Below, one piece after another: positions 10,361-16,485 of a stretch of 64,000 nt of DNA. The position numbers and the translations under genes were made by a program. Source of the DNA: Haloferax mucosum ATCC BAA-1512 (lineage in GTDB: Archaea > Halobacteriota > Halobacteria > Halobacteriales > Haloferacaceae); contig NZ_AOLN01000006.1 of NCBI RefSeq assembly GCF_000337815.1, positions 1 to 64,000 on the forward strand. The letters are read 5' to 3'. The notes beneath the pieces are model-generated. The model did no database searches. It was given only the letters and a program-made list of their open reading frames with translations, and was not told the origin of the DNA. Each line of letters begins with the position of its first letter. Position 1 is the first letter of the stretch.

Positions 10361-11584
10361 CTATTCGAACTCGTCGAGTGTGGCGTTGAGACCGCTCCGA
10401 ACCTCGGCGACGAGCGCGCCCGAGATATCGAGACCGAGGACGTTTGCGGCCGCGCGGCCGACCCGTTCGGTCTCGTCTCTCGGCGCGTAGACGCCGAGTC
10501 GCCACTGCTGTTCCTGTGCGGTCCGGAGCGCGCCGACGAGCGGCGACTCGCGTTCTAACTGTCGCATCTCGCCGTTGACCATCACCCGCGACGACGACTC
10601 CGTCATCGACGGGCGCGAGGGAACGTCGAGGATGACGGATTCGGGGTCGACGTCGGCGGCGGCGGCGATGTCTCGCTCGAAGTCGGCTATCGCGTCGTGT
10701 TCGGCGTCGATGATGTCGTCGGGGACGTTCGGCAGTTCTGCCCAGACGGCGCGTTTGTACAGGTCGCGGGTGGCGAGCCGCTCGGCGAACTCGGCTGTCG
10801 AGGGGTTGAGTCGGAGCGCGACGAGTAAGTCGTAATCGTCCATGCGGCGGAGTTCGTGCGCGTCGATGTCCGGTTCCGCGAGCAGTCGTTCTGACGCCTG
10901 TCGGAGCATCGCTTTGGAGATGCGCGCGACGTGGTGCTGGTAGACGGTCGGATTCATCAGTGCGCGGGCGAGAAGCAGTGATTCGGCAGTCTGGACGTTC
11001 CCCTCGGCTAATACGAGTTCGCCATCGACGAAGGTAAGTTCACGAATCAGTCGCTCGTGGTCGATGGTGCCGTAAGGGACGCCGGTGTGGTGGGCGTCGC
11101 GCACGAGATAATCCATTCGGTCTACGTCCAGTTCGCCGGAGACGAGTTGGCCGAACTCGCCGTCACCCTCCACTAAGGCGGCGACGCGCTCGGGGTCTAA
11201 CCCTTCGGCATCGAGCGTCTCGCCGACGGTTCCGCGGGCGACTAACTCCTCGACGTCGTCGTGATACTTGCCAGTGTGGCGGTGTGTCACAGACTCGATG
11301 TTGTGGCTGTAGGGACCGTGCCCGACGTCGTGGAGGAGCGCCGCGGCCTCGATGTGGGCGGCGGCGTCGCCCTCGATGCCGAGATGTGAGAGGGCGCGCG
11401 AGGCGAGGTGATAGACCCCCAGACTGTGTTCGAACCGAGTGTGGTTCGCGGAGGGGTAGACGAGTTGGACCGTCCCCAACTGCTTGATGCGCCGGAGGCG
11501 TTGCATCTCCGGCGTGTCGAGGAGGGCTTCGGCCGCGCCCTCGACCTCGATGTGGTCGTGGACGCTGTCCTTGATGGTCGTCAT
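10361..11584 (-). CDS. HD-domain phosphohydrolase (dGTPase/SAMHD1-like), copy 1
   Basis: 407 residues from MTTIKDSVHDHIEV; an in-frame start 18 codons upstream adds only basic, non-conserved residues. The N-terminal HD domain shows [31 protein letters not shown] and the later Asp in [20 protein letters not shown], the layout of the COG1078 family. Relatives hydrolyse deoxynucleoside triphosphates or other nucleotides; the activity here is unproven. The C-terminal third (VPSRPSMTESSSRVMVNGEM...) is a variable domain. The neighbour at 11683 is a close paralogue in the same orientation, 98 bp upstream. Confidence 0.9.
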   Translation of the reverse strand: MTTIKDSVHDHIEVEGAAEALLDTPEMQRLRRIKQLGTVQLVYPSANHTRFEHSLGVYHLASRALSHLGIEGDAAAHIEAAALLHDVGHGPYSHNIESVTHRHTGKYHDDVEELVARGTVGETLDAEGLDPERVAALVEGDGEFGQLVSGELDVDRMDYLVRDAHHTGVPYGTIDHERLIRELTFVDGELVLAEGNVQTAESLLLARALMNPTVYQHHVARISKAMLRQASERLLAEPDIDAHELRRMDDYDLLVALRLNPSTAEFAERLATRDLYKRAVWAELPNVPDDIIDAEHDAIADFERDIAAAADVDPESVILDVPSRPSMTESSSRVMVNGEMRQLERESPLVGALRTAQEQQWRLGVYAPRDETERVGRAAANVLGLDISGALVAEVRSGLNATLDEFE

Positions 11585-11682
11585 CGTCTGGAATCGACCG
11601 GCATCGGGTAAAAATGGTCGGGCGAGGTGTGAGTGCATCTCTCTCCTGACGACCGTCTCGGCGGACTCCCCCCCGCTGGCGA

Positions 11683-12855
11683 CTACACCGGCGCAGTCAC
11701 GCGCATCGGAAGCCCGAGCACGTCAACCGCGGCGGCCGCAACTTCGTCTCGGACTGCCTCGGGTGCGTAGACGCCGAGTCGCCACTGGGTTCGCTCTGCC
11801 GACCGGAGCGCGCCGACGAGTTCGGACGCGTCTTCGAGTCGCCGGACGACGCCGTTGACGACGACCCGCGACCGCGATTCCTTGATACGGGGCCGCGAGG
11901 GGGCGTCGACGATGACGGATTCGGGGGCAACGTCGGCGACGGCGGCAATCTCGCGTTCGGTCTCGCGCGTCGCCTCGAACCCGAGTTCGACGACATCCGC
12001 GGGAACCGAGTCGATGGGTGCCCAGACGGCGCGTTTGTACAGGTCGCGGCGCTCGATGCGCACGCCAAGTTCGGGTACGCGGTCACAGAGGGCGACGAGC
12101 AGGTCGTGGTCGGCCATCCGAACGAACTCCTCGATTGGGAGACCGTCGTTGACGAGGCGTTCCGAAGCCCGTTCTAACATCGCGCCGGCGATACGAGAGA
12201 CGTGATGTCGGTAGACGGTCGCGTTCATGAGTGCGCGGGCGAGAAGCAGTGATTCGGCAGTCTGGACGTTCCCCTCGGCTAACACGAGTTCGCCGTCTCG
12301 GTACCGGAGTTCGCGGACGAGTCGCCCGTGGTCGATGGTGCCGTAGGGGACGCCGGTGTGATGGGCGTCGCGCACGAGGTAATCCATCCGGTCTACGTCC
12401 AGTTCGCCGGAGACGAGTTGGCCGAGACCGCCCGCGCCATCGACGATTTCGGCGACACGGGTTGGGTCCAACCCGTGCGACGTGAGGATGTCGCCGACGA
12501 CGGTTCCGTCGAGCAGGTGGTAGATTTCGTCGTGGTCGCGGCCGGTCCGACGTCGAATGAGGTCTTCGGTCTGGTGGCCGTAGGGACCGTGGCCGATGTC
12601 GTGGAGCAAGGCGGCGGCGCGGACGTGGGCGGCGCGGTCACCCTCGATACCGAGATGCGAGAGGGCGCGCGAGGCGAGGTGATAGACGCCTAGACTGTGT
12701 TCGAATCGAGTGTGGCTCGCGGAAGGATACACGAGCCGAACCGTCGAGAGTTGCTTGATGTGTCGAAGTCGCTGGAACGCGGGCGTATCGACGAGTGCCG
12801 CGGCCACAGGGTCGAGCGAGATGTAGTCGTGGACGCTGTCCTTGACGGCGGTCAT
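11683..12855 (-). CDS. HD-domain phosphohydrolase (dGTPase/SAMHD1-like), copy 2
   Basis: 390 residues from [16 protein letters not shown]. Same domain order as the downstream gene, with long identical blocks such as [20 protein letters not shown] and [20 protein letters not shown]. The HD signature reads [14 protein letters not shown]. The middle and C-terminal parts diverge more ([21 protein letters not shown] against DIDAHELRRMDDYDLLVAL). A tandem duplication with both copies intact. Divergent from cofD, with 123 bp between starts. Substrate unknown. Confidence 0.9.
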
Positions 12856-12978
12856 ATCGGCAGTTGTACAACTGGCGTCAAATACCCGAGCATTCACCGC
12901 GAGGGCGACGCGCGCTCCCCGCAGTCAGTCGTCTCCGGTGAAGGAACTTTCAAACCGCCACTCGCCGTACGCCGGAGC

Positions 12979-13971
12979 ATGGTCACGTTCCTCGCTGGGG
13001 GTACGGGCACCCCCAAACTCCTCGACGGTGCCGCGGAGGTGTTCGACCCCGCCGAGACGACCGTCGTCGCCAACACCGGTGACGACGTGGAACTCGGCGG
13101 CCACCTCGTCTGTCCCGACGTGGATACGGTCCTCTTTTCGGGCGGCGGCGTCCTCGACACCGACAGATGGTGGGGCATCGCCGACGACACCACAGCAACC
13201 GACGACGAACTCCACCGCCTCGCCGACGCGGCCGGTCTCGAATCCGGCCCGCGGTTCCTCCCCGCCGAGGCGCAGACAGCCGGACGCGACATCGCCCGCT
13301 GGCGGCGCTTTTCGGGCGTCGCGGAGTTCATGGAAATCGGTGACCGCGACCGCGCGGTTCACATCACTCGAACGTCGCTTCTCGACGAAGGGAACTCGCT
13401 CACCGAGGTCACGGAGACGCTCGCGGACGCGTTCGGTCTCGACGTGTCGCTTCTGCCTATGAGCGACGACCCCGTTTCGACGCTCATCAACACCGACGAG
13501 GGAACGATGCACTTTCAGGAGTACTGGGTCCACCACCGGGCCGAGCCCGCCGTCCGCGACGTCGAATTCCGCGGCGCTGACGACGCGCGCATCACCGACG
13601 CCGTCGCCGACGCCCTCGCAGACCCTGTCGTCGTCGGCCCGTCAAATCCCGTCACGAGTATTGGCCCGATGCTCGCGCTCGACGACTTCGCCGACGCCCT
13701 CGCGGACACTCCGGTCGTCGCCGTCTCGCCGTTCGTCGAGGAGACCGTCTTTTCGGGACCGGCCGCCGACCTCATGGCCGGTGTCGGCTACGACCCCTCG
13801 ACCGCTGGCGTCGCCGACGCGTACCCGTTCGCGGACGCGTTCGTTCTCGACGACGAGGACGGCACCGACCTCGACAGACCGGCCGTCAGAACTGACACCC
13901 GAATCGACGGGGCGGAAGACGCCGCTCGCGTCGCCAGCGCCGTTGCTGACGCGCTCTCGGAGGTCGCGTGA
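12979..13971 (+). CDS. cofD: 2-phospho-L-lactate transferase (F420 biosynthesis)
   Basis: Joins the phospholactyl (or related) moiety to the deazaflavin FO to give F420-0. 330 residues from [20 protein letters not shown], where the GGTGTPKLL motif binds the substrate diphosphate. Further family marks are [20 protein letters not shown] near residue 31 and [13 protein letters not shown] near 220. Longer in-frame starts overlap the divergent HD gene and are not supported. The next gene starts inside its stop codon, making this the first gene of a tight four-gene cluster. Confidence 0.95.
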
Positions 13972-14750
13972 TGTTCTCGCCGCGCGTCGCAACCGCGAGC
14001 CTCAGCGGTGAATCTGACGCCGCGTGGGCGCAGGCGGCCGCCCCGCACGTCGGCGCGGTCTTCCTCGGCGGTATCGCGCTCGACGACACGTCCCGAGCGG
14101 CCGCCAGCGAACTCGTCGCCCGCGGGCGCTCCGAGTTCCTTCCGGACGACCCGTTCGCGTTCCTCGACGACCAACTCGCCGCGCTGGACGGCAAAGACCT
14201 GTTCGTCGCCGTCAACGTCCGAGCCACGGCCTCCGAGCCGATTCGTCGAGCCGCCACGCTGTGTGCCGACCATGGTGCAGGAATCGAACTGAACGCCCAC
14301 TGCCGACAGGAGGAACTCCGCGCCGTCGGTTGCGGCGAGACGCTCCTCCGCGACGCCGACAGACTGACTGCATACGTCGACGCGGCCGTCGACTCGGGCA
14401 CTCCCGTCGGAGTCAAGGTCCGCGCCGAAGTCGAGGGCGTTGACCTCCCGTCGCTCGCAACGCGAGTTGCCGACGCCGGGGCGGACTGGCTCCACATCGA
14501 CGCGATGGACACGGAATCCGTCGTCGCCGACGTCGCCGACGCCGGGACGGACCTCTTTCTCGTCGCCAACAACGGCGTTCGGGACCGAGAGACAACCCGA
14601 GAGTACCTCGAATACGGCGCTGACGCAGTGAGCGTCGGTCGGCCGAGCGACAACCCCTCCGTCCTCCACCGGGTCAGGACCGCCGTTGACGACTGGTTCG
14701 CCGGCAATCGCACCGGGACACCACGGTCCGACGACGAGGTGTTCGTCTGA
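13971..14750 (+). CDS. tRNA-dihydrouridine synthase-like TIM-barrel protein
   Basis: 259 residues from ATG 13971; a GTG one codon earlier is also possible. Resembles dihydrouridine synthases in the barrel core: GAGIELNAHCRQEELRAVG, GETLLRDADRLTAYV, GVKVRAEVEGVD, then ADWLHIDAMD and NNGVRDRETTREYLEYGADAVSVGR near the phosphate site. The catalytic Cys region is NAHC rather than the usual NMGCP, and the C-terminal tRNA-binding domain of true Dus enzymes is missing. Probably a flavoprotein of unknown substrate rather than a tRNA enzyme. Overlaps cofD by one base and the next gene by one base. Confidence 0.75.
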   Translation: MFSPRVATASLSGESDAAWAQAAAPHVGAVFLGGIALDDTSRAAASELVARGRSEFLPDDPFAFLDDQLAALDGKDLFVAVNVRATASEPIRRAATLCADHGAGIELNAHCRQEELRAVGCGETLLRDADRLTAYVDAAVDSGTPVGVKVRAEVEGVDLPSLATRVADAGADWLHIDAMDTESVVADVADAGTDLFLVANNGVRDRETTREYLEYGADAVSVGRPSDNPSVLHRVRTAVDDWFAGNRTGTPRSDDEVFV

Positions 14751-15607
14751 TGGCACCAACGCCGGTCACCGACCGCGGATTCGGTCCCGCCCGCCACGCG
14801 GAACTCGCGCTGTTGCTCGAAGTCGCTGGGACTCCGAAACCGGGAAACGTAGACCGCCGCCACGACCTCCCGGACCTCCACTTCGAGCACTTCCTGACCG
14901 GCGCTGTCGGGTCAGCCGAGGGACTCAGTCTCGCTGAATCGGGCGCACCAGTCGGTACGGCGTTCGAGACCGCGGTCGCCGGAATGAGCAGACAGGGCGG
15001 CGGAAACACGCAGTTTGGCTGTCTCCTGCTTCTCGTCCCGCTCGTCGAGGCGGCCGCCGCGGGCGAACTCTCTCCCAACGGTGCGGCCGACGTCGCGGAA
15101 GCGACCACCATCGACGACGCGGTGAATTTCTACCGGGCGTTCGAGCACGTTGACGTGGCCGTCGGCGACGCGCCCGACGCCGCCGCCGACCTCGACGTTC
15201 GACGCGGCGGCGACGCCGAACCGGCGCTCAGAGACCGCGGATACACGCTGTACGACGTGATGGAACTCAGCGCCGACCGTGACGCCAACGCCCGCGAGTG
15301 GACCGGGGGGTTCGCCCGAACCTTCCGCGCGGCCGACGCGATACGTGCTGACGACGGCCCGGTGACAGACCGCGTGGCACGGGCGTTTCTCGACCTGCTC
15401 GCCGAGGAACCCGACACGCTCGTCGTGACGACCCACGGCGAGTCGGTCGCCCGCGACGTGATGGCCCGCGCCGCCGACGCTTCGACGCTCGCCGAAGCCG
15501 GCGAACTCGCCGCGGACTTCGTCGCAGACGGCATCAATCCGGGAACGACCGCCGATATCGTCTGCGCGGCGACGTTCGTCGCGCTTGAGCGGGGGGTGCC
15601 GCTGTGA
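14750..15607 (+). CDS. Triphosphoribosyl-dephospho-CoA synthase family (CitG-like)
   Basis: 285 residues. Family marks: EVAGTPKPGNVDRRHDLPDL near the N-terminus, FLTGAVGSAEGL, GGGNTQFGCLLLLVPL around residue 83 and the C-terminal DGINPGTTADIV. In bacteria CitG/MdcB makes the prosthetic-group precursor of citrate lyase or malonate decarboxylase from ATP and dephospho-CoA. Neither enzyme is encoded nearby and I know of neither in haloarchaea, so the true substrate is likely different. Start and stop overlap both neighbours (1 nt and 4 nt), so it is translationally coupled to the cofD cluster. Confidence 0.85.
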   Translation: MAPTPVTDRGFGPARHAELALLLEVAGTPKPGNVDRRHDLPDLHFEHFLTGAVGSAEGLSLAESGAPVGTAFETAVAGMSRQGGGNTQFGCLLLLVPLVEAAAAGELSPNGAADVAEATTIDDAVNFYRAFEHVDVAVGDAPDAAADLDVRRGGDAEPALRDRGYTLYDVMELSADRDANAREWTGGFARTFRAADAIRADDGPVTDRVARAFLDLLAEEPDTLVVTTHGESVARDVMARAADASTLAEAGELAADFVADGINPGTTADIVCAATFVALERGVPL

Positions 15608-16272
15608 GCGACGAGCAACTCGGCCCGACCGAGACGTCCGACACCTGCACCGACTGGCCCGTCGAACTCCGCGGTGTTACCGAGTCTGTCGTCGCCACGC
15701 TCGGCCCGAACGACCTGTGGAACTTCGCGGCACTCGGGCTTCACGCGTCCGACCCCGACGCGTCGGCAGACGACACGGATAGTGTCACCGCGACGACGTG
15801 GGGGAACACCCGAACGCGAAGAAACTTCCACAGACAGGGCGGCGGCGTCGTCCAGTTCGTCACCGACCCGCGGGACTTCGTCGCGGCCGCGATGACGATT
15901 ACCGAGTCCGAGTCGCCGGTCTTCGACTCGGCCGACGCGTGGGTCGAAGTCGAGGTATCGATGGTCGATTCGGGTGAAGACGGCGGGACGCGGTGGGAGA
16001 CGTGGGAACTGACCCCCGTCGAAGCCGGGATTACGCAGACCCGCCCGTACACCATCAACCGCGGGTTCGGAGCCGTCATCGACGCGACGGTCGCCGCCTC
16101 CCGACTCGACGTTCCCGCATTCGACACCGACGAACTGCTCTCTCGACTCGTCTACTTCGCGGAGACGGTCGAGAAGTGCGGCGGCCCGAAAGAGCGCGAA
16201 GCGTTCGCACGAATCGACGAGTTGACCGGTTGGCGCGAGCGGGCGTCGGAGCGACGGAACGAATCGTTTTAG
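15604..16272 (+). CDS. DUF447 family protein
   Basis: 222 residues from a GTG overlapping the CitG-like stop by 4 nt. Sequence marks: VTESVVATLGPNDLWNFAALG, TTWGNTRTRRNFHRQGGGVVQF, VTDPRDFVAAAM and TQTRPYTINRGFGAVIDATVAASRLDV. This matches the archaeal DUF447 family, which I recall as a flavin-reductase-like split barrel that would bind FMN or a deazaflavin. Biochemical role unknown. It is the last gene of the cofD / Dus-like / CitG-like cluster; rps17e follows after 24 bp. Confidence 0.8.
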   Translation: MSDEQLGPTETSDTCTDWPVELRGVTESVVATLGPNDLWNFAALGLHASDPDASADDTDSVTATTWGNTRTRRNFHRQGGGVVQFVTDPRDFVAAAMTITESESPVFDSADAWVEVEVSMVDSGEDGGTRWETWELTPVEAGITQTRPYTINRGFGAVIDATVAASRLDVPAFDTDELLSRLVYFAETVEKCGGPKEREAFARIDELTGWRERASERRNESF

Positions 16273-16296: not shown

Positions 16297-16485
16297 ATGG
16301 CAATCAAGCCCAAGTACGTCAAGCAGCTTGGTAACACCCTGCTGGAGCGTTACCCGCAGGCGTTCAACACGGATTTCGAGACGAACAAAGACAGCGTCGA
16401 GCAACTGACCACCGTCGAATCGAAGGGCGTCCGCAACCGCATCGCCGGCTACATCACCCGCAAGAAGGGCGGCCAGACCGCGTAA
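16297..16485 (+). CDS. rps17e: 30S ribosomal protein S17e
   Basis: 62 residues, MAIKPKYVKQLGNTLLERYP..., ending in a basic tail (TRKKGGQTA). Full length for the archaeal form, which is about half the eukaryotic eS17. A small-subunit protein found in Archaea and Eukarya only. It lies 24 bp after the DUF447 gene and may be partly co-transcribed with it, though a separate promoter is likely given the expression it needs. Confidence 0.96.
   Translation: MAIKPKYVKQLGNTLLERYPQAFNTDFETNKDSVEQLTTVESKGVRNRIAGYITRKKGGQTA

Follow-up and report, generated by a model that had tools for sequence, protein, structure and literature searches.

We examined a stretch of 64,000 nucleotides (nt) from Haloferax mucosum ATCC BAA-1512, referred to in its entirety as the window, with emphasis on a four-gene operon located on the plus strand at positions 12979–16272. 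The genes of the operon are as follows:

12979–13971, plus strand: cofD, encoding a 2-phospho-L-lactate transferase of F420 synthesis (330 amino acids; TIGR01819 equivalog)
13971–14750, plus strand: gene for a Dus-like TIM-barrel protein resembling MJ0144 (259 amino acids; PF01207), with a NAHC motif and no C-terminal domain
14750–15607, plus strand: gene for a CitG-like protein (285 amino acids; PF01874)
15604–16272, plus strand: gene for a DUF447 protein of predicted flavin mononucleotide (FMN)-type split-barrel fold (222 amino acids; PF04289 and PF20766)

According to the open reading frame coordinates, the cofD/Dus-like, Dus-like/CitG-like and CitG-like/DUF447 junctions overlap by 1, 1 and 4 nt, respectively, as anticipated in an earlier reading of the DNA without database searches (the sequence-only reading), which had given 1–4 nt for every junction. 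Family scans matched each of the four proteins to its profile. The CitG-like and DUF447 proteins form one module with a homologue of β-RFAP synthase, encoded elsewhere in the H. mucosum genome and outside the operon—and the operon is not a single four-gene pathway. β-RFAP synthase catalyzes the first committed step of methanopterin synthesis.

The distribution of these genes across haloarchaea led to this view. DUF447 is present in 142 of 145 haloarchaeal genomes, and the three that lack it (G001, G007 and G018) are exactly those without a CitG-like gene among the 27 haloarchaea tested for it. The β-RFAP synthase family (TIGR00144) was matched in 24/27 genomes, most of them above the cut-off, and was again absent from the same three. 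Moreover, a search for Mer, the methylene-pterin reductase that depends on F420, returned 293–332 bits in 17 haloarchaea and found the gene absent from G001, G007 and G018, with G018 holding second-tier paralogues only (near 133 bits). All three genomes retain cofD and the Dus-like gene side by side. In a tree of Mch and CofD, G018 falls among its genus mates and G001 and G007 lie elsewhere, which points to two independent losses of the module. Mch itself was considered as a module partner and rejected, since it is retained by all genomes, including the three from which the module has gone. The Dus-like gene was undetected in two haloarchaea, G002 and G128, that have cofD, CitG-like and DUF447; it therefore segregates independently of the CitG-like/DUF447 module in this group. 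Of the named controls, M. jannaschii, H. volcanii, S. acidocaldarius and M. acetivorans were positive for DUF447, CitG-like and RFAP synthase, and E. coli for CitG only. In H. volcanii, the RFAP synthase homologue is HVO_2628, mer is HVO_1937 and cofD is HVO_2479. S. acidocaldarius gave no match for cofD or the Dus-like gene.

The cluster extends far beyond Haloferax, which bears out the conservation expected of it in the sequence-only reading. CitG–DUF447 adjacency is general in methanogens, where CitG often has the Dus-like gene as its immediate upstream neighbour and cofD mostly lies elsewhere; in Natrinema, an insertion parts cofD–Dus from CitG–DUF447. At one archaeal locus outside Haloarchaea (L100), the four-gene set recurs in full with its order unchanged; after it come genes for a flavoprotein bearing two 4Fe-4S motifs and for a TIGR00284 dihydropteroate synthase (DHPS)-like protein. 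The retention of DUF447 in nearly all haloarchaea, the CitG–DUF447 adjacency in methanogens and the gene order of L100 place the four-gene linkage beyond chance, with CitG–DUF447 as the stable unit of the conserved cluster. A gene for a PHP-domain protein, a candidate pathway phosphatase, was also observed near DUF447 and the DHPS-like gene at L100 (7574–8680 being occupied there by the Dus-like gene, and 10897–11562 by the PHP-domain gene) and at L097, L103 and L108.

Bacterial genomes provide a further line of evidence. DUF447 occurs in 95 of 99 Planctomycetia, and within a subset of 25 genomes all 21 with DUF447 have both CitG and RFAP synthase; the four without it—counted as genomes, not as independent losses—lack CitG and a full RFAP synthase (G315 carries an 82-residue fragment). 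In all 15 planctomycete loci read, DUF447 is the gene next upstream of RFAP synthase, and Rhodopirellula has overlapping genes for a pabA/trpG-like protein, DUF447 and RFAP synthase. No recognised pathway genes were found among the neighbours of the Rhodopirellula CitG. Additionally, on proteobacterial plasmids the CitG-like gene follows mch and a RimK-type ligase within methanopterin/methylofuran islands. These islands, annotated as tetrahydromethanopterin/methylofuran islands on plasmids of Aquabacterium, Phyllobacterium and Azospirillum, hold RFAP synthase and CitG-like near mch, mtd, fhc and fae, and those of Aquabacterium and Phyllobacterium also hold DUF447, which adjoins DUF6513 and a flavoprotein. 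The haloarchaeal setting differs from the islands in that it has no TIGR00284 DHPS-like enzyme, keeps the folate genes and couples the module to F420 and Mer, not to formaldehyde oxidation. The island gene order resembles that described in Methylosinus, namely mch-orf5-orf7-fae-orf17 and orf19-orf20-afpA (PMC3615186); by this analogy, the CitG-like protein would correspond to Orf7 and DUF447 to Orf19. One apparent bacterial DUF447, at a Chromatiales locus (L172), was ruled out as a flavin reductase adjoining an LLM oxidoreductase.

Co-loss with RFAP synthase, planctomycete linkage and location within the islands together make it very probable that CitG-like and DUF447 are genes of methanopterin-type coenzyme biosynthesis. 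The pathway that the sequence-only reading took to be undescribed is, to this extent, one with known islands, and what does seem undescribed is its use in folate-using haloarchaea: no link of these haloarchaeal genes to methanopterin or methionine was found in the open-access literature.

The family assignments of the individual proteins fit this picture to different degrees. CofD scored 382.8 bits against a TIGR01819 equivalog cut-off of 257.45 and, on this profile evidence, is an ordinary F420-synthesis enzyme, in keeping with the action on F420 first attributed to it. A second CofD-like protein, under the equivalog cut-off, adjoins cofD in G147, G208 and G212. The N and C domains of DUF447 (PF04289 and PF20766) scored 66.7 and 60.8 bits, above cut-offs of 24 and 24.8, and an AlphaFold model (pLDDT 92) best matched 2iml, 2nr4 and 2ptf, described as FMN-bound, and 3b5m. 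DUF447 is, on this model, an FMN-type split-barrel protein and a predicted FMN binder, agreeing at the level of fold with the flavin binder proposed from sequence. Structures 2iml, 2nr4 and 2ptf share fold and family with haloarchaeal DUF447; however, they come from Archaeoglobus and methanogens, and their Protein Data Bank entries give no function. DUF447 proteins have also been proposed to form cannulae (PMC13140500), a link that looked unsupported and against which both the FMN fold and the co-occurrence pattern speak.

CitG adds a triphosphoribosyl unit from ATP with the loss of adenine. The CitG-like protein matches PF01874 at 207.7 bits, and its AlphaFold model (pLDDT 94) shares the fold of 3h9p, itself annotated just as a putative family member. 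In contrast, its scores against the CitG/MdcB triphosphoribosyl-dephospho-CoA synthase equivalogs TIGR03125, TIGR03132 and NF002315 were 14.9, 19.0 and 16.9 bits, with cut-offs near 280 (272–282). Because it falls so short of these cut-offs and co-occurs with β-RFAP synthase, the protein appears not to be a CitG/MdcB enzyme, and the triphosphoribosyl-CoA product ascribed to it in the sequence-only reading is unlikely and was dropped as a candidate.

Methanopterin has a ribitol that bears an α-linked ribose phosphate. We propose that CitG-like and DUF447 are side-chain genes of a methanopterin-like methyl carrier, reduced via Mer and used for methionine synthesis beside folate, a reading to which we give a probability of roughly 0.6; that haloarchaea employ the product together with Mer to make methionine is rated just as probable. 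RFAP synthase would join an aromatic acid to phosphoribosyl pyrophosphate (PRPP), the FMN protein DUF447 would catalyze a reduction, in which the ribofuranose ring may be opened to ribitol, and the CitG-like protein would move a triphosphoribosyl group (or a phosphoribosyl one) from ATP onto the pentitol of the aryl-pentitol part, releasing adenine as CitG does. Ribosyl transfer by CitG-like and FMN-dependent reduction by DUF447 would be the simplest assignments. The haloarchaeal product may be a pterin resembling methanopterin, made in addition to folate, or the aryl-riboside portion of such a pterin; F420-dependent Mer would use it to carry a methyl group, from which split MetE would make methionine. 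F420H2 would serve as the reductant of Mer, which could explain why cofD is clustered with CitG-like and DUF447. Co-inheritance, operon linkage and family membership are the observed basis of this proposal, and from them we infer the reactions and the molecule.

The genomic surroundings of Mer are consistent with this scheme. Mer adjoins cofE in the haloarchaea read (G000, G002 and G128), with RFAP synthase about 2 kb from cofE-mer in G002. A plasmid of Halobellus limi (L341, NZ_CP031312.1 18369–24005) carries a single run of Mer, DUF447, RFAP synthase, MetE N and MetE C, with npdG, an F420 reductase gene, divergent from the run; the domains were confirmed, and the run is apparently a methyl-branch cassette. 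Most halophilic archaea have split MetE as their only methionine synthase, and methyl-folate or other methyl pterins have been predicted as its donor (PMC7857596). H. salinarum is unable to synthesize methionine (PMC5241448) and would be expected to lack RFAP synthase, CitG-like, DUF447, Mer and split MetE. Queries with E. coli and Halobellus MetE found no match in the first 1.2 Mb of the 2.09 Mb of G007, and the E. coli query does match Halobellus MetE at 2e-34; this portion of G007 supports, without proving, the loss of split MetE along with the module. Of the F420-linked cofactor pathway first proposed for the operon, the link to F420 gained support from the co-loss of Mer with CitG and DUF447, and the single pathway for all four genes and the triphosphoribosyl-CoA product were not supported. 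More broadly, one-carbon metabolism may be divided, with folate serving purines, thymidylate and serine, and a methanopterin-type pterin (made through RFAP synthase, CitG-like and DUF447) passing a methyl group from Mer to split MetE—a partition we regard as an even proposition.

Several observations weigh against the proposed methyl carrier. The haloarchaeal RFAP synthases share with the methanogen enzyme (MTH0830 type) the TIGR00144 family, which they pass, as well as the PRPP-binding motifs HVGLGSGTQ and RGG.SGIGVA and residue R26, which affects p-aminobenzoate binding (PMC6787355). However, they miss the cut-off of the equivalog NF040726, D19 is replaced by N, and RVDGG reads RLYGG. The TIGR00284 DHPS-like enzyme is absent from haloarchaea, with best scores of 18–26 bits against a cut-off of 256.65, and a folate FolC–FolP fusion is present, so that the step joining pterin to arylamine has no assigned methanopterin-type enzyme. 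Haloarchaea have been described as folate users without methanopterin-specific enzymes, and folate is ascribed to them on the strength of both chemistry and annotation (PMC8305020). The association with RFAP synthase is imperfect in methanogens, several of which gave weak matches only, and G212 has no RFAP synthase yet keeps CitG; the exceptions in the wider phylum also include four draft genomes without CitG. Finally, the loss of split MetE from genomes lacking the module was examined over 58% of one genome. Separately, three genomes of family f28 (G208, G216 and G232) have CitG-like with weak RFAP synthase matches, possibly reflecting a divergent or replaced first step.

Among the alternatives, the one that survives best concerns the Dus-like protein alone, which could be a TIM-barrel flavoenzyme that modifies RNA or a small molecule and whose ties are with F420, not with the methanopterin-type module—conceivable, if on the unlikely side. 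Its retention next to cofD where CitG-like and DUF447 were lost favours this role, as do the invariant catalytic-type C111, K149 and H175 and the methanogenesis-marker-9 domain (TIGR03277) to which the Dus-like barrel is fused at L100; in many methanogens, its gene immediately precedes CitG, which argues for a link to CitG as well. The protein scored 42.5 bits against the Dus Pfam family (PF01207), 123.5 bits against the MJ0144 family (TIGR00736), under the cut-off of 218.7, and 21–24 bits against the DusA–C equivalogs, below their cut-offs. The NAHC motif occupies residues 108–111, and C111, K149, R151 and H175 are invariant in all 14 aligned sequences. In this alignment the haloarchaeal proteins stop after the barrel, with no C-terminal tRNA-binding domain, so both features noted from the sequence alone, the motif and the missing domain, were recovered. 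The haloarchaeal form thus shares the NAHCRQ motif, K149 and H175 with the MJ0144-like family but lacks the marker-9 C-terminal domain. The methanogen-type proteins are longer than the haloarchaeal form, and at other methanogen-type loci they are similar in length to that of L100, with a matching C-terminal region.

A less probable alternative holds that Mer and split MetE use ordinary methyl-tetrahydrofolate and that RFAP synthase, CitG-like and DUF447 make another cofactor, lost by coincidence in the same, possibly amino-acid-auxotrophic, lineages. Pfeiffer and Dyall-Smith assigned haloarchaeal Mer and Mch to folate (PMC8305020), and the presence of FolC–FolP, the persistence of Mch where the module is gone and the occurrence of just two independent haloarchaeal losses all agree with such a coincidence. 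Against it stand the single Halobellus limi run uniting Mer, DUF447 and RFAP synthase with both MetE parts, and the proximity of RFAP synthase to cofE-mer in G002. Very unlikely is the idea that haloarchaea inherited the module from a methanogenic ancestor and retain it through inertia, as a relic producing no coenzyme: the disappearance of the TIGR00284 enzyme from haloarchaea would suit it, but DUF447 is kept with open frames in 142/145 genomes, the module proteins retain their conserved motifs and module loss is all-or-none. Least tenable is the original suggestion that the whole operon serves to make a single new nucleotide-type cofactor linked to F420, with CitG producing triphosphoribosyl-CoA and Dus reducing it, for despite the identical gene order of L100, cofD–Dus and CitG–DUF447 segregate separately in both directions (G001, G007 and G018; G002 and G128), S. 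acidocaldarius has CitG, DUF447 and RFAP synthase without a cofD or Dus-like match, and CitG-like lies under the CitG/MdcB cut-offs.

Other genes flank the operon in the window. Upstream and divergent from cofD lie two HD-domain (HD_assoc_2) paralogues on the minus strand, at 10361–11638 and 11683–12897; a member of the same family is also found near cofD at three loci outside Haloarchaea (L097, L099 and L108). Downstream of DUF447, the plus strand encodes ribosomal protein S17e (16297–16485), an order also seen in Natrinema (L342).

Haloarchaea serve as the standard example of a switch from methanopterin to folate among archaea. If the proposed methyl carrier exists, this switch would be only partial, and new assignments would be needed for what haloarchaeal Mer reduces and for what donates the methyl group to split MetE. 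CitG-like and DUF447, two widespread unassigned families, would also find their place in a pathway with unassigned middle steps and, since Haloferax volcanii is genetically tractable, these steps could be approached there rather than in a strict anaerobe.

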